Assembly (NCBI GenBank): GCA_028289445.1
Contig: JANQPO010000021.1
Coordinates: forward strand, 124,001 to 188,000
Reading direction: 5' to 3'
Length of the DNA stretch: 64,000 nt
From: Tepidamorphaceae bacterium
GTDB lineage: Bacteria; Pseudomonadota; Alphaproteobacteria; Rhizobiales; JAKSCL01
Shown piece by piece: positions 16,764 through 37,914 of the stretch. The first letter of the stretch is position 1. The number at the start of each line of letters is the position of its first letter. The notes under the pieces were generated by a model, which was given only the letters and a program-made list of their open reading frames with translations, had not been told where the DNA came from and searched no databases. Position numbers and translations under genes: made by a program.

Positions 16764-17959
16764 CGTGCCGCCCTCAGTTTTGCCGGTTCGTTTGTGTCGT
16801 GCTGCCAGGCGCTAACCACGCGTTCGGCGGCCTCAATCAGCGTATTGGCGCGAATGACCGGCAAGCCGGATTGGGCTAGAATGCGACGGCCGTCCTCCAC
16901 ATTGGTGCCAGCCAGGCGCACAACGACGGGCACGTCGACAGGATTGTCCCTGAGCGCTTGAACGACGCCCTCGGCGACCCAATCGCAACGGTTGATGCCG
17001 GCGAAGATATTGACCAATACGGCCTGGACGTTGTGATCGGACATCACCAGGCGGAAGGCCTTGGCAACGCGCTCGGGCGTCGCGCCGCCGCCGATATCCA
17101 TGAAGTTGGCCGGCTCGCCACCGGCGATCTTGATCGTGTCCATGGTTGCCATAGCCAGGCCGGCGCCATTGACGATGCAGCCGATCTTGCCATCCAAGCT
17201 GACATAGGAAAGGCCGCGATCCGCTGCCCGGGATTCCCGCGGGTCCTCCTGGCTCTTGTCGCGCAATTCCGCGATATGCGGGTGACGGAAAAGCGCATTT
17301 TCGTCAAACGTCATCTTGGCATCCAGCGCCACGATGCGGTTGTCAGCGGTCACCGCCAACGGGTTGACTTCGACCATCGTGGCATCGAAGTCGCGGAACG
17401 CGCGGTAGCAACCCTTCAGCGTCTTCACCATCTTGGTCGTAAGCGCCGGATCGAGGCCAAGGGCGAAAGAGATCTCCCGCGCTTGAAAGTCCTGAAGCCC
17501 GACCGCTGGCTCAACCACCGAGCGGACGATGCTCTCAGGCTTCTCTGCGGAAATCTCTTCGATTTCCATGCCGCCCTGGGCACTGGCAACGATCATCACG
17601 CGCTGGCTGGAGCGGTCCAGCACAAGCCCGAGATAGATTTCCTGAGCAATATCGACCGCACCTTCGACATAAAGCCGGTAGATCCCTTTGCCCTCGGGAC
17701 CGGTTTGGTGTGTCACAAGCTTCTTGCCGAACATCTGGTCGGCAGCATCGTGGACGTCGACGTCGCTCTCGCAGAACTTGATGCCGCCAGCCTTGCCGCG
17801 TCCGCCGGCGTGAACCTGCGCCTTCACGAGCCACCGATCGCCGCCCAGTTCGCGCGCCCGGTACGCAGCCTGTTCGGGACTGTAGGCAAGCGCTCCAGAA
17901 GGCACATCGACACCGAAATTCGCCAGAATTTCTTTGGCTTGGTACTCGTGAATATCCAC
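16760..17959 (-). CDS. mtkA: Malate-CoA ligase beta subunit (SucC-like)
   Basis: Beta subunit of malate-CoA ligase (malate thiokinase), 399 aa, with an N-terminal ATP-grasp domain ([29 protein letters not shown]) and a C-terminal CoA-ligase domain ([30 protein letters not shown]). From memory these stretches resemble Methylorubrum MtkA more closely than housekeeping SucC, for example in QTGPEGK and [16 protein letters not shown]. It starts at GTG behind a GAGGAGG ribosome binding site. With MtkB it activates malate to malyl-CoA, which the lyase encoded at 20196-21170 would split into glyoxylate and acetyl-CoA. Confidence 0.9.
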
Positions 17960-17993
17960 GATGCGCCTCCTCGTCTTGTTATCGCTCGGCGAT

Positions 17994-19238
17994 TTACTCG
18001 GCAGCGATCACGCTTGGGTAATGCAGTCCGAGAACCTGATCGACACGCGCCTGGTCGACTTCGCCGCCCAGTTCACGGATCGCATCGGCGAAGCGGTTTG
18101 CAATGTCCGTGATGGCTGCGGGGTTGAGGAGGTTCAAGATGCCGATGCGGATCTGGACAGGTTCGGACAGTGTCGGCCAGAGGCAGAAATTCTTCGCCCT
18201 GCACAACCGCACCAGTTCCATTTCGCGCCCCGCAAGCGCCTCGGGAAGATTGAGCACCAACAGGCTGGTCATGTTCGACGTCACGCGGCAGCCCATAGCC
18301 TCCACGGCTTCGCGCAACACGCTCTCGTGGAAGGCATAGGCCTCGGCGCGGTTGGCGATCGTATCGTGCAAAACGATGCGTAGCGCCTCGTGGAAGGCCG
18401 CGACGGCGTAGGCCGAATGCGTGCGGTGATAGGCGCCTTTCTCGACGTCTTTACCATCGACGATGCCCCAATGGCGTGCTTCGAAGATCGGATGATGGCA
18501 ATAGGTGTAAGCGCCGTTTTCCTTCAGGACATCGATGTATCGATCGGTGAAGCTCACCGGCGCATAGGTCAGCGGCAGGCACAGGATTCCCTTTTGCGGG
18601 CAAGACGCCCAGCCCACGACGCCGGGATAATCGTCGATCGAGAAATCGGCGACACCGAGCGAAGAGACCGCATCGACGAGACCCATTGCGCCATGGCGCT
18701 CGCAGGCTTTCGAAAAGCCGTCGAGATCATTGATGCGGCCCGAGCCTGTCTCCCAATGGGCCATGAAGGCCCATTTCGGCTTGTGCTCAGCCAGCGCCGC
18801 GTCGACGATGTCGCCGGTGACCGACTGACCGTGCGGGATCTCGATGATCGTCACGCTGGCAGGCCGGGGATCGAGCGTGTTTGCCTTGAGCTCTTCGCGC
18901 GTGGCAGCGCGCATCCGCAACGTTAGGCCGTCAATGCCCGAGAACGTGCCATTGGTGAAGGCGACAACCGTGTCGCCCGGCATCACGGCGCTGAACATCA
19001 TGTCCAGCGCACTCCAGCCCGTACCGGCAACGGCAAAGGTATATGTGTTCTTTGTGCCCCAGATCTGTCGAAGCATGTGCTTGCATTCGATCATGCCGCG
19101 CAGGACATCGTCCTGCATGTGATCGGCCATGCCGGCCTGAGCGAAGCTTTGCAGCACGCGGGCATCGGTGCTGCCTGGACCAGGTCCGGCCGCAAGCGTG
19201 TCGGGAATTTCCAGTTTGGGGAAGATGGCGCCGGTCAT
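17994..19238 (-). CDS. Class V aminotransferase, probably glyoxylate-linked
   Basis: PLP-dependent class V aminotransferase of 414 aa, the fold of serine-glyoxylate and alanine-glyoxylate aminotransferases. The start ([15 protein letters not shown]), the cofactor pocket ([29 protein letters not shown]) and the lysine segment [11 protein letters not shown] are visible. In the serine cycle the equivalent enzyme converts serine and glyoxylate to hydroxypyruvate and glycine. The position as first gene of the mtkAB/hydroxyacid dehydrogenase operon supports that, but an aspartate- or other glyoxylate aminotransferase cannot be excluded, and its sequence is not a textbook SgaA. A near-palindrome lies upstream. 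Confidence 0.82.
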
Positions 19239-19352
19239 TGCGTAGACGTCCTCGACATCAAGGCTTGTAAGGGAGTGTGTCAGCTCGATTGCGATAGAAA
19301 CCGTATCGGGAAGTCCTCCACAACCTCACTACCTCCTGCTTTCGGCCTTCTA

Positions 19353-19378
19353 ATTGGGCAGTAAATTTGCTACCCAAT
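19353..19378. promoter_or_regulatory. 26-bp near-palindromic operator in the C1 island promoter
   Basis: ATTGGGCAGTAAATTT then GCTACCCAAT forms a 26-bp dyad in which all but two base pairs are symmetrical (one C-A mismatch and one T-G pair). It lies between the divergent aminotransferase and LuxR-type regulator genes, 115 bp from the former start and 72 bp from the latter. The half-site GGGTAGCA recurs at 20162-20169 upstream of the malyl-CoA lyase gene. Confidence 0.6.
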
Positions 19379-19450
19379 CCGGTAAATCACCTAAGTCAGC
19401 TTAGCCAAAGATCCGTAAAATGGGTGGTTTTCAGCGTGTGAGCATGTCCA

Positions 19451-20098
19451 ATGGCCAATGACACCGAAAAACCTGTCAACGTGATTCTGGGCGACGGAAA
19501 TCCGCTCGTGCTGTCAGCCATGGCGGAGATCATCGAACGCGACCCGCGCTTCGCACTGATAGCCACTTCGTCCACCGCGGAAGGATTTCTGGGCACAGTG
19601 ATGCGATTGCCCGTTGAGATCGGCGTCATCGACTGGAACTTACCGGTGCTTGGCGGAGCGCGACTGATCGATGTTCTGCGGGAGCAGGACCTTCCCACAC
19701 GCATCATTGTCTACGGCGATGATTCTGGCGATCTGCCACGCCTGGCCATGTCAGCGGGCGCGGCCGGGTTCGCTCCTAGGAGCGGTGAGATCGGTGGGCT
19801 CTTATCGATCTGCATCGACGTGGCCAAGGGCAAGATGGTGTTCCCGTTTGTCGACGTGCGGGGTCTTCAGCAGCACCCGATCCAAAGTCTGTCCCGCAAA
19901 GAGCGCCAGATCCTCGAAGCGCTTGCCACGGGCCTGAGCAACAAAGAGCTGTCGCGCGAGCTCGATATCTCGCCCAACACCGTAAAGTTCCATCTTTCCA
20001 ACGTTTACGAAAAACTCGCAGTCAGAAACCGGGCACAGGCGATTGCCTATTTCTATTCGTCGCGCGCCGCCGGACTGCCAGCGGCAGATCGCCATTGA
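19451..20098 (+). CDS. LuxR-family response regulator
   Basis: Transcription regulator of 215 aa with an N-terminal receiver-like domain (about residues 9-125) and a C-terminal LuxR helix-turn-helix (about 150-210; SLSRKERQILEALATGLSNKEL, SPNTVKFHLSNVYEKL). The candidate phosphorylation residue is Asp61 in VIDWNLP. The usual acidic pair is reduced to one Asp (LGDGN), and the conserved receiver Lys is absent (GAAGFAPRS), so phosphorylation may be altered or absent. It is divergent from the aminotransferase/mtkAB operon and upstream of the lyase gene, so it is the likely local regulator. No histidine kinase is in the window. Confidence 0.88.
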   Translation: MANDTEKPVNVILGDGNPLVLSAMAEIIERDPRFALIATSSTAEGFLGTVMRLPVEIGVIDWNLPVLGGARLIDVLREQDLPTRIIVYGDDSGDLPRLAMSAGAAGFAPRSGEIGGLLSICIDVAKGKMVFPFVDVRGLQQHPIQSLSRKERQILEALATGLSNKELSRELDISPNTVKFHLSNVYEKLAVRNRAQAIAYFYSSRAAGLPAADRH

Positions 20099-20195
20099 GC
20101 CTCGCCCGCACGAAGCCTAAATCGCAGCTTGACAGTTCGCCCGCTTCACCGTCTCTCAGCAGGGTAGCAGTCGTAACGCCAAGTGAGGAAATCTG

Positions 20196-21170
20196 ATGAG
20201 CTTTCACGCAATCGAACAAGCAACAGCACGGCTCAATCGAAGCGAACTGGCCGTGCCGGGCAGTCAGCCACAGATGTTCGAGAAGGCCGCAGCCTCAGAT
20301 GTCGATGTGATTTTTCTCGATCTTGAAGACGCGGTGGCTCCGGACGAAAAGGAGCAAGCGCGAAAGAACATTATTCAGGCACTGAACGAGATCGATTGGG
20401 GCCGCAAGGCCATGTCGGTGCGGATCAACGGCCTGGATACGCATTACATGTACCGCGACGTCGTCGATGTCGTCGAACAGGCGGGCGAGCGGCTCGATCT
20501 GATCATGATTCCGAAGGTCGGTACCGCATCGGACGTCTACGCCGTCGACATGCTTGTCACTCAGATCGAAGACGCCAAAGGCTATGAAAAGCGGATCGGT
20601 TTTGAGCACATCATTGAAACCGCCCTTGGCATGCAGAACGTGCATGAGATTGCCGCGGCGTCCAAGCGCAATGAAAGCCTTCATTTCGGCGTTGCCGACT
20701 ATGCCGCGTCGACCCGCGCTCGCACCACAAACATTGGCGGTGTGAACCGCGATTATTCGGTGCTGACCGATCCCAGCGACGATGGGGACCGGGAGGTCCA
20801 CTGGGGGGATATGTGGCATTATGCGGTGGCCCGCATGGTGGTGGCCGCGCGCGCCAACGGATTAAGGCCGATCGATGGGCCATTCGGCGACTTCAAGGAC
20901 GCCGACGGTTACCGGGCGGCGGCAATGCGCGCTGCCGTGCTGGGCTGTGAGGGCAAATGGGCCATTCATCCCAGCCAGATCGCGCTGGCCAATGACGTCA
21001 TGAGCCCCTCAGAGGCCGAGGTCGCCAAGGCCAAGCGTATTCTGGAAGCGATGGCCGACGCTGAGGCACAGGGCAAGGGAGCCGTTTCGCTGGATGGCCG
21101 GTTGATCGATTATGCCTCGATCAGACAGGCGCAGGTGTTGGTCGAAAAGTCCAAACAGATTTCCGGGTAA
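20196..21170 (+). CDS. mclA: L-malyl-CoA lyase (CitE superfamily)
   Basis: Magnesium-dependent CoA-ester lyase of 324 aa that cleaves malyl-CoA to glyoxylate and acetyl-CoA. Family signatures include SELAVPGSQPQMFEKAAAS, DVIFLDLEDAVAPDEKEQAR, the Arg in VRINGLDTHYMYRDVVD, FGVADYAASTRART and GKWAIHPSQI. From memory these match Methylorubrum MclA over long stretches. It lies 97 bp after the LuxR-type gene on the same strand, and completes with mtkAB the malate-to-glyoxylate branch of the serine cycle. Mtd, Fch and Ppc genes are not in this window. Confidence 0.93.
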   Translation: MSFHAIEQATARLNRSELAVPGSQPQMFEKAAASDVDVIFLDLEDAVAPDEKEQARKNIIQALNEIDWGRKAMSVRINGLDTHYMYRDVVDVVEQAGERLDLIMIPKVGTASDVYAVDMLVTQIEDAKGYEKRIGFEHIIETALGMQNVHEIAAASKRNESLHFGVADYAASTRARTTNIGGVNRDYSVLTDPSDDGDREVHWGDMWHYAVARMVVAARANGLRPIDGPFGDFKDADGYRAAAMRAAVLGCEGKWAIHPSQIALANDVMSPSEAEVAKAKRILEAMADAEAQGKGAVSLDGRLIDYASIRQAQVLVEKSKQISG

Positions 21171-21184
21171 TCGGCAAAAGAACG

Positions 21185-22729
21185 TCAGACGATGGACGAG
21201 ACCGTCGCACGGATCGGGCGGCTCGGCCTGAGCGTGCCGCGCCAGACGGGGTCGATGTTGTGGCTGTCGACCAGTTCGAAATCAAAGCGCGACAGGACGG
21301 TGGCCAAGACGACAACGGCCTCGATCATTGCAAACCGACCGCCAATGCATGCGCGGGGACCGACACCGAACGGCTGAAAATCGCAGCCACCATCGGCCCG
21401 CCGCAAAAAGCGTTCGGGCATGAAGACTTCCGGATCGGGCCATCGATTCGAGTTGCGGTTCTGCGCCCACACGTTGGCAACCACATAATCGCCGGGGCGA
21501 ATCTCGAAACCGCCAACCGAATCCGGACACTTGGCGTACCGTAAAAGACACGGGACATTCGGATAGAGCCGCATGGTTTCACGGATCGAAGCGGTCAGCC
21601 AGGGAAGGGCATGCTGCCACTCCGTGGGCGGGCGCTTTAAGTGATCGCATGTGCCGAGTTCAGCGCGAACATTGGCCATCGATCGGGGGCAGTTCAACAG
21701 GCAGTAAAGCGTCCACGTCATCGTCACCGCCGTCATCTCGAAGCCCGCGCCAAGCATTCCAGCAAGATTATCCTGGATCTTGCGGACCGCCTTTTTCGAT
21801 TGGCGCCGTTGTGGGTCCCAGTGTCTGACGAAACCCTCCAAAAGGTCGTCTGTCGGCTCGCTTTGAGCGCTCCGTCGAATTCGGTTTAGGACAAATGTCT
21901 GGCCGAACTCGGCGCAAATGTGTGCCAGTTGGATGGCTTTCAGCTTCGACAGGCGCGGTACGCCCCGGGGCAAATTCATCAAATCCACGGGGTCGACGGA
22001 GAGCTGCAACTCGACCGCGTCACTGAAATCTTCCGTGCGCACACGAGACAAGATCTCGGAGCCTGCGGAGCAGAAGGCCTCCGCGACGTTCTCAAAGGAA
22101 ATGCCCTTGATGAAGGCGCCAAGCTCGATCTTAGATGAGGTGTCCAAATCAGCACAGGCGCGCTCCGACACAGCGCGAAATATCTGCGCATACTTCGCCA
22201 GCCATTCCGCGGTGAAGTATCGCCCCGTCACTCGCCGCGCTTCTTTCCACTCGGCTCCTGCATTCGTGATCAAGCTGTCGCCGATCATCGGCCGTGCCAA
22301 GGCGCGCCGGAGCGGGTCCATTCCGTAATTGTCGGCCCCGCGCGCGAACACATATCGAATGAGTTCGGGATCAGAGATGAAAACGGCCCGCAGACCCAGA
22401 AGCCGCACTTCGCAAGCGGGCTTCTCCATCATCTCGCGTGTCTGCAGGCTTAGCGGATCCTTCCGCATCTTGCTCAACACCGTCAGAAACGAGGGCAGGG
22501 TTTCAATGGGGTTGGGAGCACTGGGCCTAAACCGACCCGCGCTTTCGACGTCGGTCACCGACGGTTGTCCGATGTGACCCTGTGGAACAGGGCATGGGAT
22601 GGGTGCCGCTCGTTCGCCCGGCTGGTCGGAATACCGCAGATTCACTTCGGCGGCCTCTGCTGAATGGTCAGGCCCATGATGTTGAAACTCGCTCCGGGCG
22701 CAAGGCCGGTCATGATGTCGACCCTGCAT
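21185..22729 (-). CDS. Cytochrome P450
   Basis: Haem monooxygenase, 514 aa as tracked; the first 60-70 residues are low in P450 character, and the true start may be internal, for example GTG at EVNLRYSD. The ExxR motif (ETMRLYPNVP), PERF (FMPERFL) and haem-Cys loop FQPFGVGPRACIGGRFA are intact. The I-helix reads AGFEMTAVTM, so the usual catalytic Thr after the acidic residue is Met. The 3' end lies just past the malyl-CoA lyase gene. The tracked start overlaps the stop of the upstream RND gene by 20 bp, so the two are probably one transcript. It belongs with the fatty-acid genes that follow, suggesting a fatty-acyl or lipid substrate. Confidence 0.93.
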   Translation of the reverse strand: MQGRHHDRPCARSEFQHHGPDHSAEAAEVNLRYSDQPGERAAPIPCPVPQGHIGQPSVTDVESAGRFRPSAPNPIETLPSFLTVLSKMRKDPLSLQTREMMEKPACEVRLLGLRAVFISDPELIRYVFARGADNYGMDPLRRALARPMIGDSLITNAGAEWKEARRVTGRYFTAEWLAKYAQIFRAVSERACADLDTSSKIELGAFIKGISFENVAEAFCSAGSEILSRVRTEDFSDAVELQLSVDPVDLMNLPRGVPRLSKLKAIQLAHICAEFGQTFVLNRIRRSAQSEPTDDLLEGFVRHWDPQRRQSKKAVRKIQDNLAGMLGAGFEMTAVTMTWTLYCLLNCPRSMANVRAELGTCDHLKRPPTEWQHALPWLTASIRETMRLYPNVPCLLRYAKCPDSVGGFEIRPGDYVVANVWAQNRNSNRWPDPEVFMPERFLRRADGGCDFQPFGVGPRACIGGRFAMIEAVVVLATVLSRFDFELVDSHNIDPVWRGTLRPSRPIRATVSSIV

Positions 22730-24962
22730 GCTGGTGTGCGACGATCAAGGCCGCGGGCAAGACGAACAGGTCCGCCAGCAATGCCAGCACGAAAATAGCG
22801 ATGGAGGCCAGCGCAAACGATCCCACCGTTGGGATTGAACTGCCAAGCGCTGGGATCAGGCCAACGGCCAGTACCACAGTCGTTAAGATCAATGCGGGCG
22901 CGGCCTCGGCGGTCGAACGCCTGATTATGGCCGGGTTCGCATTCAAGATGCCACCGTTCAACCGAACTCGGTTTAGAACGTGTACCGTGTCGTCAACGGC
23001 GATTCCGAAGGCGATGGTCAGTGCGGTCCCACTCCAGAATTGAAGACCGTTCCCGGACAGATGAAGCCAGGCTCCCAGTAGCATGATCGGCAATAGGTTA
23101 GGCAAAAGTGCCGATAGACCAAAGCGCCACCGGCGGAACCAGACCAGGATCAAGGCGCCCGAAAACAGCACTGCGAGCAGCAGAGACACATTGATGTCGC
23201 CGATCAGCTTGGGCGTCATGAAGGCGGCCGTCACGAGCAAACCCGTGGGCGCTCCGATCCAATCTAGGCCCCGATCTTCGATCGCGGCGCCGATGTCGCC
23301 GACGAGCGTTCGGGTTTCCTTGGCGCCAAGGTCCGGCAGGCGCGCGCGTACCAGCGCGAAGTCTCCCTGGGTACTTATGAACTGGCCGCGCTGACCTTCT
23401 GGAAGCTGTGCCAAAGCCTGCGCGATCTGTTCAGGTGTTCCGCCGACAGCGAGATCCGCCGCCGAGATCACGGCAGCCCCGGGCACGCGTTCGGAAAAAA
23501 GCTGGTGCGCCTGCACTATGCGATCGATGTCGCCGGTGCTTTGACCGCTGGATGACAGGGCCACTGGCAAATCGATCGACAGCAACGGCAGCAGAGCCGC
23601 CTCGATCCGGTTCATCGCCCGAAGGGTATCGCTTTTGGGGTTGACGCTTTCTGTGAACTGAAAGCGCGTTTCGATTTGAGTGTAGACGGTGGCGGTCACC
23701 GCGAGGATGGCCAAACTCGCGACGGTCACGCTGCGCGGGTAGCGCACCGCGATTCGCGGCAGCCACGCCGCATTTAGTCCAAATGGCGCTCCTGGCTTTG
23801 TGCGTGGCGATAATCTGGAAAGACCAATGGTTCGCTCGATGGTCATGAACAGCAGAGGGTGAACGAACAATACCGCCGCCAGCGCAAGCATTGTGCCGAC
23901 CAGGCCGGCAACCGCCAAGGTGCGAACCATTTGGGCGTCGGAGAGTAGCAATCCGGCAAAGGCAGCCGCTGTGGTGATCGACGCGAGCGCGCAAGCGGGC
24001 CCGACCCTGCGCAACGATAAAAGGGCGACACTTCCGGTCGTAGACTGCTGCCGCGTGAGCCGCAGATTTTCGAAGGTGAGGTGCAGGCAGTCGGCGAAAC
24101 TAAGGGCCAGGATCAGAAACGGAACGACGATGCTGAGAATGTTGATGTTGATGCCAAGCACGGAAAAGCCGCCTAGGACCCACAGCAACGCCGTCGCCGA
24201 AGGCACGGTCACCAACAGACCCAATCGGACGCTACGCATCGCAACAATCGACAAAAGCGCGGCCAGCGTGCCGCCTGCGGCGTTCAACAAAAGCGTTTCG
24301 CTCGCCAAGATGTCCAGAACCTCAAGGTTCAAGATCGGACCGCCGGTGATCGTCATCCGCAGACCCGTCGCGTCCGTTACGACGGTGCCAAGTCGGTCAA
24401 GCTCGCCGATAATCTGACGAAGCAACGCGGGCTCGGGCACGCTTGCCCCAAAGTCGACGACGACCACGGTGGTTCCCGCCGCGTCGTTCATAAACATCGC
24501 GAAGATCGGAATATCGCTATGCGCTTGGCGAAGAAGGGCCTGGAGCCCCTCGGTTGAATGAATGTCGGCAGGGATGATCGGCCCTCCGGCTTCGGGCCAT
24601 CCTTCAGGGCGCCTTATCGCGAAAGCCGACTGGACCTCGGCTATTCCGTTGACGAACTGCGCTTCAAGTACGAAGTCGCGAACCGCCGCCAAGTTCGAGG
24701 GGTTTGAAAGGGCATCGCCTTCAAACAAGACGGCAACCTGCCGCTCCGCCGTGTGGAAGTGTTCGGAATGCTCCGAATAATCGACATACCACTTCGAAGG
24801 GCCGACGAAGGCCGATTCGAAATCGTAGTCGAACTTCAATGAGGGCAGGGCCCAAATCGACAGAAGGCAAACAACGAGGTAGGCAGCCCAAGCCAGCGGC
24901 AAGGATCGGCGGCTAACCGAACGCAGACTGTCTTGAATCGCACCTCTCCCCCGGTTGAGCAA
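22710..24962 (-). CDS. RND-superfamily (MMPL/HpnN-like) exporter, first copy
   Basis: Inner-membrane RND protein of 750 aa with two halves, each with one membrane helix, a large periplasmic domain and a block of helices. The second half carries FGIAVDDTVHVLNRVRL, a proton-relay type motif. No partner adaptor or outer-membrane channel gene is adjacent, which fits the MMPL/hopanoid-transporter type rather than AcrB-type drug pumps. The tracked start is TTG; no convincing ribosome binding site precedes it, so the N terminus is uncertain. It is divergent from the acyl-AMP ligase/reductase gene. Export of a lipid product is inferred. Confidence 0.88.
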   Translation of the reverse strand: MLNRGRGAIQDSLRSVSRRSLPLAWAAYLVVCLLSIWALPSLKFDYDFESAFVGPSKWYVDYSEHSEHFHTAERQVAVLFEGDALSNPSNLAAVRDFVLEAQFVNGIAEVQSAFAIRRPEGWPEAGGPIIPADIHSTEGLQALLRQAHSDIPIFAMFMNDAAGTTVVVVDFGASVPEPALLRQIIGELDRLGTVVTDATGLRMTITGGPILNLEVLDILASETLLLNAAGGTLAALLSIVAMRSVRLGLLVTVPSATALLWVLGGFSVLGININILSIVVPFLILALSFADCLHLTFENLRLTRQQSTTGSVALLSLRRVGPACALASITTAAAFAGLLLSDAQMVRTLAVAGLVGTMLALAAVLFVHPLLFMTIERTIGLSRLSPRTKPGAPFGLNAAWLPRIAVRYPRSVTVASLAILAVTATVYTQIETRFQFTESVNPKSDTLRAMNRIEAALLPLLSIDLPVALSSSGQSTGDIDRIVQAHQLFSERVPGAAVISAADLAVGGTPEQIAQALAQLPEGQRGQFISTQGDFALVRARLPDLGAKETRTLVGDIGAAIEDRGLDWIGAPTGLLVTAAFMTPKLIGDINVSLLLAVLFSGALILVWFRRWRFGLSALLPNLLPIMLLGAWLHLSGNGLQFWSGTALTIAFGIAVDDTVHVLNRVRLNGGILNANPAIIRRSTAEAAPALILTTVVLAVGLIPALGSSIPTVGSFALASIAIFVLALLADLFVLPAALIVAHQHAGSTS

Positions 24963-25252: not shown

Positions 25253-28200
25253 GTGCAAACGCTGACAGCGCACCTGGACCGATGGTCGCGACAACAGCCT
25301 GACGCGACGCTTTTCACATTCGGCGATCCGCGTGGCAGGGAAACTGAGCGCTACACCTATCGCCAGTTTGCCGCACGGTCGGTTGCGTTGGCAGCGTACC
25401 TGCGGCTTCGTGGATTGAAGCGTGGTCAACGGGCGCTTTTGCTTCATCCGCCAGGGCTTGAACTCATGGTCGCGTTGATCGCGTGTTGCCGATTGGGTGC
25501 GCTGCCGACCGTCGCGCCGATCTCGGCAACGACGGGCTGGCGCACGGCCGCAACGCGCGCCCGCATCGCAGCGATTGCGGGCGACTGTTCGCCGTCGCTT
25601 GCACTCGCGTGCGCGAGCCAAATCGCCGGGGTCGAACCAGGCGATAAAGCGCTGGGTGGGCTATCGGTCATTGCAACGGATGGCGAAATGCCAGAAGTGT
25701 GGCATTGGCAGGATGAGCCGCACGATATTGCCTTGCTGCAATACACCTCCGGCTCGACCCGCGATCCGCGCGGCGTATGCGTCACGCATCGCAATATCAT
25801 CGCCAATGCCCAAGCCCTCCTGGATCATTCTCCCATCGGCGTAACCTGGCTCCCGCAGTTCCACGATATGGGGCTGATCGGCTACGGCATGTTTCCGATC
25901 GTCATGGGCGGCCGGTCTCACGGCATCGCGCCCGATCATTTTCTCCGGCGCCCGGCGGTCTGGTTCCAGATGATGTCGCACTACCGGGCGACGTTTTGCT
26001 CGGCGCCCAATTTTGGCTTCGATCACTGTCTGCGTCCGGATCGGATCACCGACGCGGATCTTGAGGGCGTCGACCTTTCAAGCCTTCGCGTGCTGGTGAA
26101 TGGCGCTGAGCCGGTATCGCCGGCGTTGTGCCGCCGTTTCGCAAAGCGGTTCGCGTCCTTCGGTTTGCGCCGCGATGTATTGATCACAGCCTACGGTTTG
26201 GCAGAAGCCACGCTGGCAGTGTCCAGTGGCGGTCACGGTGGGCGAGTCTTCAATGCCAATCGCCTTGCTCATGGCGTGGCCACGACCGAGGTGCCCGCGG
26301 GAGGGCGAACGATCGAGCTGGCAAGCTGCGGTCGGGTATTGCCCAGTGTTGATTTGACGATCCGATCACCCACCTCCGGGAAACCCTGCCGCGCCGGAGA
26401 AGTCGGCGAAATCGTGCTCACGGGAGAAAGCATAACACCGGGCCATTGGATCGGCGGCTCGATGCCAAGCCGTGAGGGTCCTTTGGAGACCGGCGATCTC
26501 GGCTTTGAGTTCGACGGCGAACTGTTCGTTTGCGGACGCTCCAGCGATGTCATCATCCGCAACGGCGAGAATTTTCATCCGCAAGATATCGAGGCTGCGG
26601 TGTTGACGGCTAATGCCGACATTCGCAGATGCGTTGCATTTCAGCGCGATGACGGAGAAACGGTCCTCGTTGTCGAACCCGTTGGCCATAGCGCGTTGCC
26701 GGATGCGGCCACGCTCGCGGATCGCGTCGCCAAGGCAACTGGGTTGGTTCTGGATCGCGTGGTTGTGGCGGCAAAGCGAAGCATTCGATACACAACCTCA
26801 GGCAAAATAGCGCGTGGCTTGACGCGCCAGCGCCTGGCCGACGGCAAAATTCGTTGCCTGACAGATACCCCCGTCGCAATCACACCTGTTTCTGACGATG
26901 AGAGCGCCTTCGATTGGCTGGACGCGGCGCTTCGCCGCGATCCGGCACTTGCCGCTTCGCCGTTGGGCGAATCGGGAATCGATTCCTTGCGCCTCGTTGA
27001 ACTCCAGCTTGAACTTGAGGCGCATTTGACGCCTTTGATCGGAGGCGATGTTGTTGACCGTATCAACGGCATGGCCTTGCAGCGGTGGACCTGTGGCGAG
27101 GTGGCTGCCTTGAGGCGGCAGGTGAGCGATGGCGATAGCACTCAGATCCGCCAGCTGACCGAGCGGCTCTTGGGTCAGGACGAGAGCGCCAGGACGGGCG
27201 AGCAGAACCTTATGGTTCGCGATTCATTGCTGCCGCTTCCGAACATGGTAACGGGTCCCGAACATCTTTCAGATACGCGCCCGCGCCCGGCTTTGTTGAC
27301 CGGCGCGACTGGCTTTTTGGGTCCTTTCCTGCTGAGCAGCCTGCTTGAGCAAACCAATGAGGACATCATTGCGATCAGTCGCGCTGACGACGATCGTCAC
27401 GCCCTATGCCGGATCGAAGACGCGTTGCAGCGCGCTGGCTTGTGGGCGAAGGCAGAAGAAAACGGCTTTGCGGCGCGTGTGACGGCATGGCGCGGCGACC
27501 TTGCACACCCGGAACTAGGGCTTTCGCCAAACCGGCGAGAGGTCATCGCCAACACAGGTTTCGACGTTTATCACAATGCGGCACAGGTCGACTACGTGCG
27601 CACCTACGACGCCTTACGCCGGCCCAATGTGGAAGGCGTGCGAAACCTTCTGACGTTGGCCATGACAGGTGCGCCGAAGCGTTTTCACCATGTTTCGAGC
27701 ACATTCATCTTTGGCTGGACAACCGCGCTGCGATTGAACGAAGACGACGGCAACTCCGCGATGAGCGGGCTTGATTTCGGGTACTCGCAAAGCAAATGGG
27801 TGGCCGAGCAGCTCGTGCGCCGAGCTGCGAACGCGGGTCTTGCAACAACCACCTTCCGGCCTTCGCTGATTTCTGTGTCCTCGACCATGCATGGAGACGC
27901 CCATGACGTGGCCGCAAGGATTATCGCCTTCATGATCCGATATGGTGTCGCGGTCGACACGCCGAACCAGATCAGTTTGGTTCCTGTCGACACGCTGGCA
28001 CACAATCTGGTGAGAATGGCGCGGCGCGACCCTCCGCCCGGTTCTGTTTTCCATCTAACGGCCGACCGCTATTACAGCTTGCCCGATCTGACCCGCCAGA
28101 TCGGCGAGAACTTTGGCTATTCTTTCGAATATGTCGACATACCGACGTTCGTCGATCGACTGAACCGCTTCGCCCGTCCCAGCGATCCGGTCTTTCCCTT

Positions 28201-28411
28201 GCGGGATTTTCTGAACCGAGCGGCACCGTTTATCGAGAAGATGACCATGAAACGGTATGATAACCGCCACTATCAAGAGGCGCGGACGAGCGACCCTTTG
28301 GCGTGGCCCGAACCGAGCTTTGCTGAGATTGCAAGACGGATGGTCGGGTTTCTCGATTGCCAAGGCTGGCTGCCATCCACCCGCGCGAGCGTGCCGTCGG
28401 AGAAGGTCTGA
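25253..28411 (+). CDS. Fatty acyl-AMP ligase / acyl carrier / thioester reductase fusion
   Basis: A 1052-aa three-domain protein. Residues about 1-550 are an adenylating domain with YTSGSTRDPRG and the fatty-acyl-AMP-ligase hallmarks WLPQFHDMGLIG and NFGFDHCLRPD. Around residues 560-620 is an acyl carrier domain whose attachment motif ESGIDSL puts the phosphopantetheine Ser near residue 578. From about residue 680 is an NAD(P)H thioester reductase of the Lys2/SDR type, with LLTGATGFLG, HHVSST and YSQSKWVAEQL. The protein should activate a fatty acid, load it on its own carrier and release it as an aldehyde or alcohol. GTG start. Carboxylic acid reductases share this layout, but their A domain is not of the FAAL type. 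Confidence 0.9.
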   Translation: MQTLTAHLDRWSRQQPDATLFTFGDPRGRETERYTYRQFAARSVALAAYLRLRGLKRGQRALLLHPPGLELMVALIACCRLGALPTVAPISATTGWRTAATRARIAAIAGDCSPSLALACASQIAGVEPGDKALGGLSVIATDGEMPEVWHWQDEPHDIALLQYTSGSTRDPRGVCVTHRNIIANAQALLDHSPIGVTWLPQFHDMGLIGYGMFPIVMGGRSHGIAPDHFLRRPAVWFQMMSHYRATFCSAPNFGFDHCLRPDRITDADLEGVDLSSLRVLVNGAEPVSPALCRRFAKRFASFGLRRDVLITAYGLAEATLAVSSGGHGGRVFNANRLAHGVATTEVPAGGRTIELASCGRVLPSVDLTIRSPTSGKPCRAGEVGEIVLTGESITPGHWIGGSMPSREGPLETGDLGFEFDGELFVCGRSSDVIIRNGENFHPQDIEAAVLTANADIRRCVAFQRDDGETVLVVEPVGHSALPDAATLADRVAKATGLVLDRVVVAAKRSIRYTTSGKIARGLTRQRLADGKIRCLTDTPVAITPVSDDESAFDWLDAALRRDPALAASPLGESGIDSLRLVELQLELEAHLTPLIGGDVVDRINGMALQRWTCGEVAALRRQVSDGDSTQIRQLTERLLGQDESARTGEQNLMVRDSLLPLPNMVTGPEHLSDTRPRPALLTGATGFLGPFLLSSLLEQTNEDIIAISRADDDRHALCRIEDALQRAGLWAKAEENGFAARVTAWRGDLAHPELGLSPNRREVIANTGFDVYHNAAQVDYVRTYDALRRPNVEGVRNLLTLAMTGAPKRFHHVSSTFIFGWTTALRLNEDDGNSAMSGLDFGYSQSKWVAEQLVRRAANAGLATTTFRPSLISVSSTMHGDAHDVAARIIAFMIRYGVAVDTPNQISLVPVDTLAHNLVRMARRDPPPGSVFHLTADRYYSLPDLTRQIGENFGYSFEYVDIPTFVDRLNRFARPSDPVFPLRDFLNRAAPFIEKMTMKRYDNRHYQEARTSDPLAWPEPSFAEIARRMVGFLDCQGWLPSTRASVPSEKV

Positions 28412-28466: not shown

Positions 28467-29315
28467 ATGCCGGATGTCTTTAAGGGACGCGTCGCGGTGG
28501 TCACGGGTGCCGGCAGCGGGATCGGCCGTGCCCTGGCGCTGGACCTGGCGTCTCGCGGCGCACTGCTTGCGGTCTGCGACATCGATGCGGACGAGGTCGA
28601 GGCGACCGCTGACATGGTGCGGGACCGCGGTGCACAAGCGATTGCGGACCGGCTTGACGTCTCCGATAGGGCTGCCTTCGCTAAGTTCGCGGACCGGGTC
28701 GTAGGTCATTTCGGTGCGGTCAATCAGCTCTACAACAATGCCGGCATCGCCTCGCAGAGCGCCCCCTTCGTCGAGGCAGAGATAGCGCTGTTCGATCAGG
28801 TGTTGTCGGTGAACCTGGACGGCGTGGTCAACGGCACGCGGGCCTTTCTGCCGCACCTGATCGCCAGCGGCGAGGGGCACCTCATCAATATCTCAAGTCT
28901 TAACGGCCTGATGGCGCAGCCGCACATGGCCTCCTACGTGACGAGCAAGTTCGCCGTTCGTGGATTCACGGAGGCGGTCCGTCAGGAGATGATCTACCAT
29001 GATCGCCCTGTCGAGGTGACCCTGGTCCATCCCGGCGGTGTCGCGACGCGGATCGCTTCGCGTACTTTGGAGGGGATAGGCGCGCTTCCGCCTGAGAAAC
29101 AGGCCGAGGCGCGCGAGCAGATTAGGATTTACGAACAGAAGTTTCTGGCGTTGCCGGCGGAGACCGCTGCACGACAGATTCTCGATCAAATGGCGCGGGG
29201 CAGGCGCCGGATCGTTCTGACGGGACGAGCGAAGTTTCTCGACGTGATGGTTCGGCTTTTGCCTGAGTCCTATGTGGGCCTCGTGGCAAAGAAGGCTCGA
29301 AAAATGGTCGAATGA
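28467..29315 (+). CDS. Short-chain dehydrogenase/reductase
   Basis: Classical SDR of 282 aa from the ATG at 28467; the tracked 352-aa ORF includes a spurious N-terminal extension that overlaps the upstream gene. Motifs are VTGAGSGIGRALALDLASRG (cofactor), NNAGIAS, the catalytic Ser in NISSLNG, and YVTSK. Length and the C-terminal region (LDVMVRLLPESYVGLVAKKARKMVE) resemble membrane-associated SDRs acting on lipophilic substrates. It lies 55 bp after the ligase-reductase gene, so reduction of a fatty aldehyde or oxidation of a hydroxy-lipid is plausible. Confidence 0.92.
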   Translation: MPDVFKGRVAVVTGAGSGIGRALALDLASRGALLAVCDIDADEVEATADMVRDRGAQAIADRLDVSDRAAFAKFADRVVGHFGAVNQLYNNAGIASQSAPFVEAEIALFDQVLSVNLDGVVNGTRAFLPHLIASGEGHLINISSLNGLMAQPHMASYVTSKFAVRGFTEAVRQEMIYHDRPVEVTLVHPGGVATRIASRTLEGIGALPPEKQAEAREQIRIYEQKFLALPAETAARQILDQMARGRRRIVLTGRAKFLDVMVRLLPESYVGLVAKKARKMVE

Positions 29316-29354: not shown

Positions 29355-30920
29355 TCAAACACCCTGCCGCGCGAGGTGTGCCAGGACTCTGGTGAGGACG
29401 CGGGGGTCCCAGTCTGGCCGGGCGACCGGAGGCGGGCTCGGTTGCCCGCTGTTCAGCGCCGCAATCGCCTCCCATGCAGTGCGGACGGAATATTCGACGG
29501 TGAAGACGGTGTCCGCCGGCAACTCGACGAACTGGCCGATACAGGCGTAGTTGAGCGCACCCGCTGGCCGGATCTCGGGCCGGTCGCCTGGGCGGCGGGG
29601 CATGAACTGGCTGGTGATCAGCGGCATGCGGCAGCCGATCAGTTGCGCCCCCTCGAAGATATGCGCACGCGTGGCGGTGTCCATCTCCAGGTGGCCGGCT
29701 ATCTCCTCGATGATCTGCGCACCGTCGGCCTGTTCCATCGTCACGCCGCAATGGGTGCCGGGCTGGTCGGGACATAGGCCGAAGCCCCACATCACCTCGC
29801 TGCCTGGCGGCTGATCTCGGAAGTGCGGCTGCTTGAAGGTAACGAGTGACGCCCGCCACGGCGAGTATTCAAGCGCATAGATTACCGTCGCCGGCGCGGC
29901 AGGAGGGCGAAGCGTGGCGAGGTGATCCCCGAGCCGTTCTGTCGGTAGCGTGATCGTGAACGATTGCCAGCCCGTCAGTTTGGGGTCAGGTGCAAACGCT
30001 TCGGGGCGCCCGAAACCTGGAACCGCGGCGAGCCGCCGCCATAGATCGAATGCAGGCGTCGACTTCGGTTCAGCCGGAACCGGTTCTCCGGGTGCACCGC
30101 AACTGGCGCCGTCGGTCATGGAACCGAGCGTGAAATAGACCCGATCATCGGGTTGAATTGGGACGGACGTGTCGTTGACCGTCAAAGCGGTGACGTGCCG
30201 GCCGTTTGACGTTTCCTGGAAGGCGGCATCGACAACGCAGCTTCTTGGGCGGAAGTCCACATTGTTGGCGCGCAACCAGTGCATTAGCGGTTCGATCAGC
30301 GATTCCGCCTGATTGTATCGCGTCGAGAAGATGCCCTCGTGATGGTTCACATGCTGCGCAAGGTGGAGGAACCGATGTAGGTAGCGTCGAAACTCTGTCG
30401 CGGAATGCCAGGGTTGAAATGCGAAAGCGGTCGACATGGTCAGCCACATGCGCGAGTCGAAGAAATCGCGCGTGAGGATGTCGCAGATGCGCAGGCCGGC
30501 CAGCCGTTTCTCGCCCCGAACCATCAGTCCGGCGAGTGCCTGGATTTGCGCACGCGGCACTTTCATCGCGGGCTTTTCGGCGGATCCGCCGGGTCTTAGA
30601 TGAATGCAGGCATAGGGCACCGGGTTCTCGCGGTTGAACGCCTCGAACTCCTTGCCGAGTGTTTCGCCCGGTCGGTCCGGGGACGGGATATCGCGCATGA
30701 GATCCAACATGCAGCGGTAGTTCTGCTCGAACATACGAGCGCCGCGCATGATGTATGCGCCGCCGGGAACCTGCGCGCCATCAAGGCTGCCGCCCGCGCC
30801 TCCGGATTTTTCGAAGATGACGATGCGGCGGCCGTCAACACCGTGATCACGGATCAGCAGCACCGCGCCCGCAATCGCCGCGATGCCGCCTCCGACAAAA
30901 AAATGTCGTGCCGCACTCAC
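29355..30920 (-). CDS. Oleate hydratase-family protein
   Basis: FAD-dependent fatty acid hydratase (myosin-cross-reactive antigen family), 521 aa. The N-terminal flavin motif VGGGIAAIAGAVLLIRD, EKSGGAGGSLDG, FQPWHSATEFRRYLHRF and the C-terminal LITSQFMPRRPGDRPE are typical of the family, which adds water to the cis-9 double bond of unsaturated fatty acids. The motif RGGREM of characterised enzymes reads RGARMF here, losing the Glu implicated in catalysis. It is convergent with the SDR and followed on its strand by the cluster's intergenic hairpin and, upstream, the second RND gene. It may provide 10-hydroxy acids to the pathway. Confidence 0.9.
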   Translation of the reverse strand: MSAARHFFVGGGIAAIAGAVLLIRDHGVDGRRIVIFEKSGGAGGSLDGAQVPGGAYIMRGARMFEQNYRCMLDLMRDIPSPDRPGETLGKEFEAFNRENPVPYACIHLRPGGSAEKPAMKVPRAQIQALAGLMVRGEKRLAGLRICDILTRDFFDSRMWLTMSTAFAFQPWHSATEFRRYLHRFLHLAQHVNHHEGIFSTRYNQAESLIEPLMHWLRANNVDFRPRSCVVDAAFQETSNGRHVTALTVNDTSVPIQPDDRVYFTLGSMTDGASCGAPGEPVPAEPKSTPAFDLWRRLAAVPGFGRPEAFAPDPKLTGWQSFTITLPTERLGDHLATLRPPAAPATVIYALEYSPWRASLVTFKQPHFRDQPPGSEVMWGFGLCPDQPGTHCGVTMEQADGAQIIEEIAGHLEMDTATRAHIFEGAQLIGCRMPLITSQFMPRRPGDRPEIRPAGALNYACIGQFVELPADTVFTVEYSVRTAWEAIAALNSGQPSPPPVARPDWDPRVLTRVLAHLARQGV

Positions 30921-34194: not shown

Positions 34195-35457
34195 ATGACA
34201 TTGAGATTAATCGGATTGGCGACAGGCACGATGCTTGCATCGATCGGTGGCGTAATGGCTGCGGAGCCGATTGCTGTGCTGAAAACGTACGCCGATATCG
34301 CGCATGCCAAGTATGAGGACTCGCTGACAATGGCACAGGCCCTCGACACGGCCATCGATGCGCTCATCGCGAACCCGTCCGAGGCCACCTTGAACACCGC
34401 ACGGGCCACATGGATCGCGGCGCGCGTTCCCTATCAGCAGACCGAGGTCTACCGCTTTGGCAATGCCATCGTCGACGACTGGGAAGGCAAGGTAAATGCC
34501 TGGCCGCTGGATGAGGGGCTGATCGACTATGTCGACGCCTCCTACGGCAGCGAGAGCGACGAAAACGCGCTTTATACGGTCAATGTCATCGCTAATGCCA
34601 AATTGACGGTCAACGGCGCCGAAGTCGACGCCTCATCGATCACGCCAGCGCTCCTGGCCGACACACTGCATGAAGCCGAAGAAGTCGAGGCGAATGTCTC
34701 GACCGGCTATCACGCCATCGAGTTCCTTTTGTGGGGTCAGGACCTACACGGGACCGGTGCAGGTGCCGGCAGTCGTCCGGCGACCGATTTCGATACGGCA
34801 AATTGCACCGGCGGAAACTGCGAGCGGCGCGCTGAGTACCTTAAGTCGGCCTCGACGTTGCTCTTGTCGGACCTTGAGGAAATGGTCGGCAACTGGGCCG
34901 AGGGCGGTGCAGCGCGCACGGCACTGACGGGAGATGACAAAGCCGGGCTGACGACGATCCTGACCGGCATGGGGTCATTGTCCTATGGCGAACTCGCCGG
35001 CGAACGCATGAAGCTCGGCCTGCTGCTCCACGACCCGGAGGAAGAGCACGATTGCTTCGCGGATAACACCCACAATAGCCACTACTTCAATCAGGTCGGC
35101 ATCCGGAACATCTTTACCGGTGCCTATAAGCGCATCGACGGTTCGGTTGTCGCTGGCCCCTCGATCGGCGACCTCGTTGCCGAAGCCGATGCTGAGGTTC
35201 ACGCGGACCTGTCGGCCAAGATCGGTGAGACGATGGCGGCGATGGCCGCAATGAAAGCACGCGCCGAAGGCGTTGAGGCCTACGATCAGATGATCGGCGA
35301 GGGCAACGCTGAAGGTAACGCCGTCGTTCAGGCCGCGATCGACGGGCTGGTCGCACAGACCCGGCCGATCGAGCGGGCCGTTGCAGCACTGGGGCTCGGG
35401 TCCATCGAGATCGAAGGGTCCGATAGCCTCGATAACCCGAACGCCGTGTTTCAGTGA
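34195..35457 (+). CDS. Imelysin-family iron-regulated lipoprotein-like protein
   Basis: Periplasmic imelysin (peptidase M75 family, IrpA-like), 420 aa, with an N-terminal signal peptide (about residues 1-22, TGTMLASIGGVMAAE). The GxHxxE signature is visible as GYHAIEFLLWGQD around residue 176. Imelysins bind iron or haem-related ligands at the cell envelope and are not proven proteases. The second imelysin of the operon, at 37911, lacks this signature. Expected to be iron- and Irr-regulated given the ICE upstream. Confidence 0.93.
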   Translation: MTLRLIGLATGTMLASIGGVMAAEPIAVLKTYADIAHAKYEDSLTMAQALDTAIDALIANPSEATLNTARATWIAARVPYQQTEVYRFGNAIVDDWEGKVNAWPLDEGLIDYVDASYGSESDENALYTVNVIANAKLTVNGAEVDASSITPALLADTLHEAEEVEANVSTGYHAIEFLLWGQDLHGTGAGAGSRPATDFDTANCTGGNCERRAEYLKSASTLLLSDLEEMVGNWAEGGAARTALTGDDKAGLTTILTGMGSLSYGELAGERMKLGLLLHDPEEEHDCFADNTHNSHYFNQVGIRNIFTGAYKRIDGSVVAGPSIGDLVAEADAEVHADLSAKIGETMAAMAAMKARAEGVEAYDQMIGEGNAEGNAVVQAAIDGLVAQTRPIERAVAALGLGSIEIEGSDSLDNPNAVFQ

Positions 35458-35489
35458 TCGGCAAACGCGAGCAACGGAGCTAAACAACG

Positions 35490-35831
35490 ATGATCATTTG
35501 CCACTGCAATGTCATCACCGATGACGACATCAAGGAGGCCGTGCGCGGCCTCCTTGAGAAAGATCCCTGGATCTACGTGACGCCAAGCGCGGTCTATCGG
35601 GAACTTGGAAAACGGGGAAAATGCTTCGGTTGCTTCTCAACGGCCATCGACCACGTCATCGAACTCATTGAAGCCGAGCGGCACGCCCAGGAAGTTACGC
35701 CCAATTGGGTTGACCAGACCTTGACACATCTGCGACTTCTGAAGGACCGGCGCACGTCGGTCCAAGCACTCAAACACGCAAGAGGTCTGCAGAATGAAAG
35801 GCGATCCCAAAGCCATCGAACGGCTCAATGA
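35490..35831 (+). CDS. bfd: Bacterioferritin-associated ferredoxin-like [2Fe-2S] protein
   Basis: 113-aa protein with the Bfd-type ligand pattern: C4-x-C6 (CHC) and C45-x2-C48 (CFGC). The spacing between the pairs is about seven residues longer than in Escherichia coli Bfd because of an insertion around KDPWIYVTP, and there is a C-terminal tail beyond residue 65. Bfd reduces the ferric core of bacterioferritin to release iron. Its 3' end overlaps the bfr start by 38 bp, so the tail exists partly because of this overlap. Confidence 0.88.
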
Positions 35832-36279
35832 AGCTCTTTTCCTAGAGCTAGGAGCCATCAATCAGTACTGGCTCCATTATCGGCTGTTGGAAGACTGGGG
35901 TTACACGAAGCTCGCCAAAAAGGAGCGGGAAGAGTCTCTGGAAGAGATGGTTCACGCCGACAAGATCACATCGCGCATCATCTTTCTTGAAGGGCATCCC
36001 AACATGCAGACCTTGGCGCCGTTGCGCATTGGTCAGACGGTCAGAGAAGTCCTTGAGGCCGATCTCGCTGGCGAATATGAGGCCCGCGAGTCCTATTCGA
36101 AGTCGCGGGAAGTCTGCCGCGAGGTTGGCGATTTCGTGTCGATGCACCTCTTCGAGGAGCTTTTGGCCGACGAGGAGGGCCATATCGACTTTCTCGAAAC
36201 CCAGCTTGAACTACACGATAAGATCGGACCTGAGCGCTACGGCCTGCTCCAGGCAGATTCAGCAAACGACGCCGATTAA
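35794..36279 (+). CDS. bfr: Bacterioferritin
   Basis: Iron-storage bacterioferritin of 161 aa, the normal length. The di-iron ligands E18, E51 and H54 are present ([22 protein letters not shown]), as is M52, the haem ligand at the subunit interface, and the C-terminal ligand helix [16 protein letters not shown]. It forms a 24-mer storing ferric iron in the cytosol. It overlaps bfd and precedes the di-haem oxidoreductase by 9 bp. Confidence 0.97.
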
Positions 36280-36288
36280 CGGGACGCC

Positions 36289-37914
36289 ATGGAGCGGTTG
36301 CGTCAGTTTCGAGTCCGCGTCACATGGGCCATTGAGTATATCAGGGACCCAGGAAGCGGACCAAAATGGCGCATGCCGCGGCTCTCGCTTGGTCTGTCGC
36401 TAGGCGGCGTTCTCGCGGCGGTGTGTGCGAGCATCGCATTCGCGATGTCCGCCGTTGGCGGATCGCCATTGCCTCATCGCGACGACCTTACGCCTGAAGA
36501 CCGAGCCCGAGTCGCGGCGGTGACCGCACCGCCTGAGGACTTCAGAAAGCCGCAGCCCTTCGAGGCGATGGCCGGTGGCGCGGCAACGTCGACAGCCTCG
36601 GTGACGGAAAACTCCTTTTCGCATCCCTCCGCCAATTTGAAAGGCGAGGAACGCGCCGACTTCTTTGTCGGAAATGGACTGTTCAAGAAGGTCTGGGTGT
36701 CTTCGCCTGCGTCGACGCAGGCGTCCGACGGGTTGGGTCCACTCTTCAACGCCCGGTCGTGTCAGCGCTGCCATCTAAAGGACGGGCGCGGACATCCGCC
36801 GGCCGGCCCTGACGATCTTGCAACGTCTATGTTTCTGCGCGTCTCGGTTCCGCCGCGCACGGAAGCGGATCGGCAAGCGCTGGAGACGAAGGCGATGCTC
36901 CGCATTCCGGAGCCGACCTATGGCGGCCAATTGCAGGACTTTGCCGTGCCCGGCCTGCCGGCTGAGGGCCGCATGGTCGTCACCTATGAAGAGGTACCGG
37001 TTGAGCTATATGGCGGCGAGACTGTCACCTTGCGTAAACCAACCTATTCCTTCGTGGATTTGGGCTACGGTCCGATGGCCGACGACGCCATGTTCTCACC
37101 GCGCGTCGCGCCACCGATGATCGGGATGGGCCTTTTGGAAGCTATCCATCCTGGCGACATTCTCGCGAACGCCGATCCGGACGACATCGACGGCGACGGG
37201 ATCACCGGCAAGCCGAGCATGGTGCGCGATGCAAACAACGGCGATCTTGTTGTCGGTCGCTTCGGTTGGAAGGCATCCAATCCAACGGTTCGCGCGCAGT
37301 CGGCCGGCGCGTTTGCTGGCGACATCGGGATTTCGAATCCCGGCAGCCCCGATCCGTTCGGCGACTGCACGGACCGGCAGCCGGCCTGTCGCGCCATGCC
37401 CACCGGCGTGCAAGAGCGATTGGGCGACACCGAGGCGCCGGATCCGGTCTTGGACTTGGTGGTTTTCTATTCGAAGAACCTTGCCGTGCCAGTTCGCCGC
37501 GATGTCGACGATCCACAAGTCCTGCGCGGCAAGGAGATTTTTCACGCTACCGGATGCGCGGCGTGCCATAGACCGAGCTACGTCACGAGCAGAGATGCTG
37601 CCAATCCAGAGCACCGGTTTCAGTTGATCTGGCCCTATACCGACGTGCTTCTCCACGACATGGGCGAGGGCTTGGCCGATCACCGCCCGGTCGGAGACGC
37701 GACGGGGACGGAATGGCGGACTGCGCCGCTATGGGGCATCGGTCTGACGGAGACAGTGAACGGCCATACGTTCTTTCTCCATGATGGCCGGGCACGTAGT
37801 CTCTTGGAGGCCATTCTTTGGCATGGCGGTGAAGCACAGGCGGCGCGCGACGCCGTGGTCGCGATGGAGGCCGACCGACGCGCCGATCTCATCAGGTTCT
37901 TGGAATCACTTTGA
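36289..37914 (+). CDS. Di-haem oxidoreductase (DUF1111 thiol oxidoreductase family)
   Basis: c-type cytochrome of 541 aa with a signal-anchor helix (about residues 31-52) and two CxxCH haem sites: CQRCH near residue 160 and CAACH near residue 423. The family (di-haem oxidoreductase, DUF1111) is commonly encoded with imelysins, as here. A periplasmic electron-transfer role linked to iron uptake or oxidation is inferred. Its stop overlaps the start of the second imelysin gene (ATGA). Confidence 0.9.
   Translation: MERLRQFRVRVTWAIEYIRDPGSGPKWRMPRLSLGLSLGGVLAAVCASIAFAMSAVGGSPLPHRDDLTPEDRARVAAVTAPPEDFRKPQPFEAMAGGAATSTASVTENSFSHPSANLKGEERADFFVGNGLFKKVWVSSPASTQASDGLGPLFNARSCQRCHLKDGRGHPPAGPDDLATSMFLRVSVPPRTEADRQALETKAMLRIPEPTYGGQLQDFAVPGLPAEGRMVVTYEEVPVELYGGETVTLRKPTYSFVDLGYGPMADDAMFSPRVAPPMIGMGLLEAIHPGDILANADPDDIDGDGITGKPSMVRDANNGDLVVGRFGWKASNPTVRAQSAGAFAGDIGISNPGSPDPFGDCTDRQPACRAMPTGVQERLGDTEAPDPVLDLVVFYSKNLAVPVRRDVDDPQVLRGKEIFHATGCAACHRPSYVTSRDAANPEHRFQLIWPYTDVLLHDMGEGLADHRPVGDATGTEWRTAPLWGIGLTETVNGHTFFLHDGRARSLLEAILWHGGEAQAARDAVVAMEADRRADLIRFLESL

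Follow-up and report, generated by a model that had tools for sequence, protein, structure and literature searches.

FAAL-carrier-thioester reductase proteins form a cross-phylum family of predicted single-chain fatty acid reductases

Carboxylic acid reductases (CARs) combine adenylation, carrier and reductase domains on one chain. The protein described here has the same arrangement, and dependence on ATP and NADPH and a need for phosphopantetheinylation would be expected of it as of CARs, but its adenylation domain is of the FAAL type, with the FAAL insertion and helix, and groups with FAALs rather than with CARs and CoA ligases. We use the name FCR for this FAAL-carrier-thioester reductase architecture and for the family that shares it. 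In the tambjamine YP1 system, the FAAL-like adenylation-ACP enzyme TamA and the transaminase-thioester reductase TamH convert a C12 acid to the amine, presumably via the aldehyde (PMC5939613, PMC9594044). FCR resembles this pair in its FAAL-like adenylation domain and ACP and in the proposed reduction of the acyl thioester to a fatty aldehyde; however, TamA and TamH are separate polypeptides, a transaminase forms part of TamH, and the TamH reductase is similar to cyanobacterial acyl-ACP reductases with a catalytic Cys, whereas that of FCR is of the Lys2/MxaA type. The solved FAAL closest to FCR by both sequence and fold is that of a cyanobacterial olefin synthase (PDB 7r7e-g), which binds a long-chain acyl-adenylate; there, a PKS extends the acyl chain to a terminal olefin, whereas in FCR the reductase comes directly after. 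A 2021 eLife paper (PMC8460268) mentions in one sentence that bacterial FAALs occur in fusion with "alpha aminoadipate reductases"; this is very probably the FCR architecture, for which the text of that paper offers neither sequences nor a function or phylogeny. The word "reductase" occurs nowhere in the main text of a 2025 review of bacterial FAALs (PMC11837247). Literature searches combining FAAL with thioester reductase, CAR with FAAL, and FAAL with P450, with subscription journals mostly outside their coverage, retrieved no characterised FCR member.

The window, by which we mean the whole 64,000-nucleotide stretch of DNA analysed (Tepidamorphaceae bacterium, contig JANQPO010000021.1), contains an FCR reading frame of 1052 codons that begins with GTG and is uninterrupted by stops. 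The protein and its three domains are placed as follows.

25253..28411, + strand: FCR (FAAL-carrier-thioester reductase protein), 1052 aa; ORF, domain matches, 36-member alignment and model
25253..26857, + strand: FAAL-type adenylation domain, residues about 1-535; Pfam AMP-binding, FAAL NCBIfam models, PDB 7r7f/3kxw/3pbk, tree
26894..27136, + strand: carrier domain, about residues 548-628; helices in the model, PP-binding in 9/36 relatives
27290..28360, + strand: thioester reductase domain, about residues 680-1036; NAD_binding_4, TIGR01746, PDB MxaA 4u7w

Pfam matches AMP-binding at residues 9-399 (8.6e-60) and NAD_binding_4 at residues 682-917 (2.8e-52), the top-ranked NCBIfam models are those for fatty-acyl-AMP-ligase, and the thioester reductase model TIGR01746 scores 218.1 bits against a cut-off of 213.35. 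The DIP2-like AMP C-terminal domain matches residues 432-533 just under its cut-off. Among PDB entries, the adenylation half matched FAALs, with those of the Synechococcus olefin synthase (7r7e-g) ahead of 3kxw and 3pbk; the best sequence match of FCR was 7r7f, the olefin synthase FAAL domain (2.6e-72), and the reductase half matched MxaA (4u7w). An AlphaFold model built with 36 relatives as input had a mean pLDDT of 84.8 and a pTM of 0.52, indicating that the domains are modelled well and that their relative placement is uncertain. The best fold matches of the model were the same FAALs, with TM values on the target of 0.82-0.84 for 7r7e-g and 0.84 for 7r7f. The initial annotation had recognized FAAL hallmarks, an ACP and a Lys2-like reductase on one chain, and the intact ORF together with the Pfam, NCBIfam, PDB and fold matches bears this out, the carrier being the weaker element by HMM.

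Within the adenylation half, the following elements could be assigned.

25739..25777, + strand: ATP-binding loop QYTSGSTRDPRGV, residues 163-175; Q163-T169, P172, G174 and V175 invariant in 36 members
25847..25882, + strand: FAAL motif WLPQFHDMGLIG, residues 199-210, equivalent to EcFAAL W224/P226/M231; alignments, EcFAAL roles from PMC8460268
25931..25954, + strand: FAAL-specific helix region PDHFLRRP, residues 227-234; gap-free alignment to known FAALs, F230 and P234 invariant in 36
26231..26320, + strand: FAAL-specific insertion region, about residues 327-356; alignment, absent from CARs and largely from FACLs
26804..26806, + strand: Lys518 of TTSGKIAR, adenylation lysine of the C-terminal subdomain; invariant in 36

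In EcFAAL, residues W224, M231 and F279 block the canonical CoA pocket, and P226 lines the pocket (PMC8460268). By motif correspondence with known FAALs, their FCR counterparts are W199, M206, F254 and P201; F254 is nearly invariant among 36 FCR members, and the other three are invariant. The WLPxxHDMGL motif, the FLxRP helix region, the APNF motif and the insertion at about residues 327-356 are common to FCR and FAALs and missing in CARs; as judged from these alignments, FCR has both the FAAL-specific helix and the FAAL-specific insertion. The nearest solved FAAL structures (7r7e-g) are complexes with stearoyl- and palmitoyl-adenylate, and Gly220, invariant in all 36 members, aligns with the pocket position that was mutated from Ala to Ile in 7r7g. 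The ligands of the closest FAAL, together with an invariant glycine that leaves room in the pocket, suggest a long-chain substrate.

In the carrier, one site could be assigned.

26984..26986, + strand: Ser578, predicted phosphopantetheine attachment site (GIDSLRL); invariant in 36

The Pfam PP-binding model has no match in the window FCR protein and matches 9 of the 36 FCR relatives, at best with 8.4e-5. Ser578, embedded in G(I/L)DS, is present in every one of the 36 relatives, and in the model it opens the long helix of a helical segment spanning residues 552-626. From this conservation and the modelled helices, we take the FCR carrier domain as real though divergent. One phosphopantetheinyl transferase, of AcpS size (137 aa), was detected in the genome, and a genome search for the Sfp-type N-terminal domain found none. 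Given the weak carrier HMM signal and this lone AcpS-size transferase, activation of the FCR carrier is assumed.

The reductase half contains two characteristic motifs.

27299..27322, + strand: nucleotide-binding motif TGATGFLG, residues 683-690; G684, G687 and G690 invariant in 36
27782..27796, + strand: catalytic YxxxK, Tyr844 and Lys848, with Thr817 upstream; all invariant in 36

From its domain matches and motifs, the reductase half of FCR is classed as a Lys2/MxaA-like thioester reductase; Lys2-like reductases are of the alpha-aminoadipate reductase type. MxaA is a four-electron, alcohol-forming reductase domain, and as the nearest reductase relative it gives a hint, but only a hint, that the FCR product may be an alcohol. 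A literature search on CAR residue D998, a possible predictor of two- versus four-electron reduction, found no paper.

Since the A-T-R order and the length of FCR are similar to those of CARs, and since its reductase half weakly matches the CAR model NF041592 (98 bits versus a cut-off of 1300), FCR might be viewed as an ordinary CAR with a divergent adenylation domain. This view is hardly tenable in the light of the adenylation-domain phylogeny, a maximum-likelihood tree of 44 rows and 556 columns comprising FCRs, FAALs, CARs and acyl-CoA ligases. Its FAALs were stand-alone or PKS-type proteins from the order of the window organism, with seven rows lacking a strict search-motif match dropped, and its CARs were exclusively mycobacterial, taken from genomes that also encode FCR. 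A 100/100 branch joined 21 FCR and 9 FAAL rows, with FCR itself being a 100/100 clade, whereas the CARs formed a separate 100/100 clade on the acyl-CoA ligase side of the tree. The WLPxxHDM, FLxRP and insertion elements likewise argue against a CAR, and CAR structures scored far below FAALs in the PDB search. The initial annotation had proposed that CARs share the domain order of FCR but differ in adenylation type; the tree, the FAAL-specific motifs and the fold search all separate the two in this way, and no placement of FCR inside the CARs was seen. The suggestion that the reductase is distinct holds for a monophyletic tri-domain family (100/100), which is nevertheless present beyond this genome. 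On phylogenetic grounds, the FCR family is one that evolved separately from known carboxylic acid reductases, and we consider it probable that the A-T-R design of carboxylate reductases is realised in it a second time, on the basis of a FAAL. It is also highly unlikely that the reductase domain is redox-inactive and the product released in another way, as in Dieckmann-type R* domains, or that FCR as a whole is a pseudo-enzyme. Its ATP loop is indeed substituted, reading DPRGV with Arg where most FAALs carry Lys (PRG for PKG; the same is seen in relatives L009 and L031), but the ORF is intact, the family is conserved, and 36 diverse members from eight phyla all retain Lys518, Ser578, Thr817, Tyr844, Lys848 and the nucleotide-binding glycines.

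The full FCR architecture was found in 5 of 150 relatives of the same order, at 38-40% identity. A wider scan, using one genome per species, yielded at least 80 FCR loci, nearly all of them full-length matches, at 33-43% identity, and many of the FCR-bearing genomes are metagenome-assembled. The phyla among the matches listed were Actinomycetota (mainly mycobacteria), Acidobacteriota, Pseudomonadota, Bacteroidota, Planctomycetota, Gemmatimonadota, Hydrogenedentota and Calditrichota. With at least 80 relatives and monophyly, FCR is a family and not a one-off fusion, apparently a widespread and uncharacterised one. Plasmid records gave zero FCR matches at E 1e-80. At locus L013, near 1258-1600, the FCR copy (G073) is apparently frameshifted near its C-terminus relative to that of L012, reflecting either sequencing error or decay.

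In the window, FCR is surrounded by genes for lipid-modifying and transport proteins.

21185..22729, - strand: cytochrome P450, heme motif FGVGPRACIG; domain matches, genome search
22710..24962, - strand: MMPL/HAE3-type RND transporter, its ORF overlapping the P450 ORF by 20 bp; domain matches
28467..29315, + strand: SDR oxidoreductase with start MPDVFKGRV..., longest ORF from 28257; domain matches
29355..30920, - strand: oleate hydratase homologue (MCRA), Met63 at the EmOhy Glu122 position; domain matches, PMC8403116
31009..33168, - strand: second MMPL-type RND transporter; domain matches

The first transporter and the P450 lie to the left of FCR and are divergently transcribed, with the SDR, the oleate hydratase homologue and the second MMPL transporter downstream. 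The P450 has kept its heme, ExxR and I-helix motifs, and its closest relatives reach 33% identity at best. It is the sole P450 of the 3.95-Mb genome and lies 2.5 kb from FCR; we estimate the chance of a lone P450 falling within this distance at roughly 0.1% (5 kb of 3.95 Mb). The catalytic Glu of oleate hydratases (E122 in EmOhy, E82 in SaOhy) is absent from the homologue, which has Met63 at this position (assigned by offset). Since R. erythropolis ReOhy (HFam 3) carries Met at the same position and is active (PMC8403116), the window homologue may still catalyse hydration. MCRA is rare in the order: of 150 genomes, 8 others carry it, all of them without FCR. A search of these 150 relatives for the window's own P450-MMPL-oleate hydratase set thus showed MCRA genomes and FCR genomes to be disjoint. 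Overall, the neighbourhood suggests a chain-modified, reduced and exported lipid. Directly left of this lipid cluster lies a serine-cycle gene set (window 14902-21170), with hydroxypyruvate reductase-like, serine-glyoxylate aminotransferase-like and malyl-CoA lyase-like proteins, malate-CoA ligase subunits and a LuxR-type regulator. On the right side (window 34195-40062), ORF translations alone indicate an apparent iron-handling set of imelysin-like proteins, a bacterioferritin-like protein, a di-heme c-type protein and a DUF1513-like protein.

Taken at its domains, FCR is probably a self-contained, FAAL-type, ATP- and NAD(P)H-dependent fatty acid reductase serving a modified, exported lipid. 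A self-contained fatty acid reductase was also what the initial annotation had envisaged, and the FAAL affiliation, the domain content and the conserved catalytic residues favour this assignment. The mechanism follows from established FAAL and thioester reductase chemistry; for FCR, we infer the substrate, the product, the order of steps and export. The FAAL domain would form acyl-AMP from ATP and a free fatty acid, which is probably a long-chain one and may bear a hydroxyl group or another modification. The acyl group would then be passed to the phosphopantetheine on Ser578 of the protein's own carrier, with CoA rejected, and the thioester reductase domain would use NAD(P)H to release it, either as an aldehyde or, if reduced a second time, as a primary alcohol. 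Possible targets of the neighbouring SDR are this free aldehyde or a hydroxyl or keto group. Modification of the chain would fall to the P450 and the oleate hydratase homologue, and export of the product to the MMPL transporters.

In other lineages as well, the FCR family tends to adjoin oxygen-dependent or lipid redox enzymes. An FCR-linked P450 clade (99/99) comprises sequences from Acidobacteriota, Gemmatimonadota, one gammaproteobacterium and Bacteroidota (Flavobacteriales), and the other P450s sampled from such genomes fall outside it. It is represented at nine loci (L071, L074, L078, L079, L081, L083, L096, L106 and L108), often with an adjoining desaturase, and in two flavobacterial-type genomes the FCR-linked P450 is the only one. 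Fatty-acid desaturases lie near FCR at acidobacterial, flavobacterial and some alphaproteobacterial loci. In mycobacteria (L032-L073), a PF10118 "metal-dependent hydrolase" with His/Glu motifs lies directly downstream of FCR, within about 140 bp; at several loci an SDR comes next, and a ferredoxin-type reductase follows. The roughly 35 loci with PF10118 and this reductase are closely related and were treated as a single lineage. Instead of a hydrolase, PF10118 might be a diiron oxygenase. Beside FCR in Caulobacter (L077, 13246-15852) and in an acidobacterium (L079, 7550-9971), we observed a pair of genes for an FMO-like monooxygenase and an SDR. Because the neighbour genes vary among lineages, they do not fix the FCR product.

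These neighbours allow a tentative refinement, not opposed to the fatty acid reductase reading, which we hold to be conceivable but somewhat doubtful: FCR might act as a loading and off-loading platform on which partners such as the P450 modify the carrier-bound acyl chain in trans before its reductive release, yielding a functionalised aldehyde or alcohol. The proximity of the genome's sole P450, the FCR-specific P450 clade shared by four phyla and the recurrent desaturases are consistent with such a role, and TamA/TamT/TamH provide a precedent for on-carrier modification (PMC5939613). However, the window P450 sits on a long branch apart from the FCR-linked clade (23-26% identity), so that its linkage to FCR may be an independent recruitment, and the mycobacterial loci have the PF10118 protein and the ferredoxin-type reductase in place of a P450. 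By analogy with AAR/ADO of cyanobacteria and with the insect reductase-P450 pair, fatty aldehydes made by FCR could conceivably pass to adjoining, dedicated oxygenases (P450, membrane desaturase-type or PF10118) and lose their aldehyde carbon there, which would constitute an unrecognised bacterial hydrocarbon pathway; we regard this as a long shot.

As a self-contained fatty acid reductase, FCR would represent a large cross-phylum family with a testable prediction, namely, that one protein reduces free fatty acids directly with ATP and NAD(P)H. Relying on FAAL rather than CAR chemistry, FCR would not draw on the CoA pool. If a member is characterised, it would establish that there are two types of single-chain carboxylate reductase of independent evolutionary origin, and FCR-type enzymes may be of use in making fatty aldehydes and alcohols. 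A characterised member would also provide an entry point to uncharacterised lipid clusters of Acidobacteriota, Bacteroidota, mycobacteria and Rhizobiales-type bacteria.
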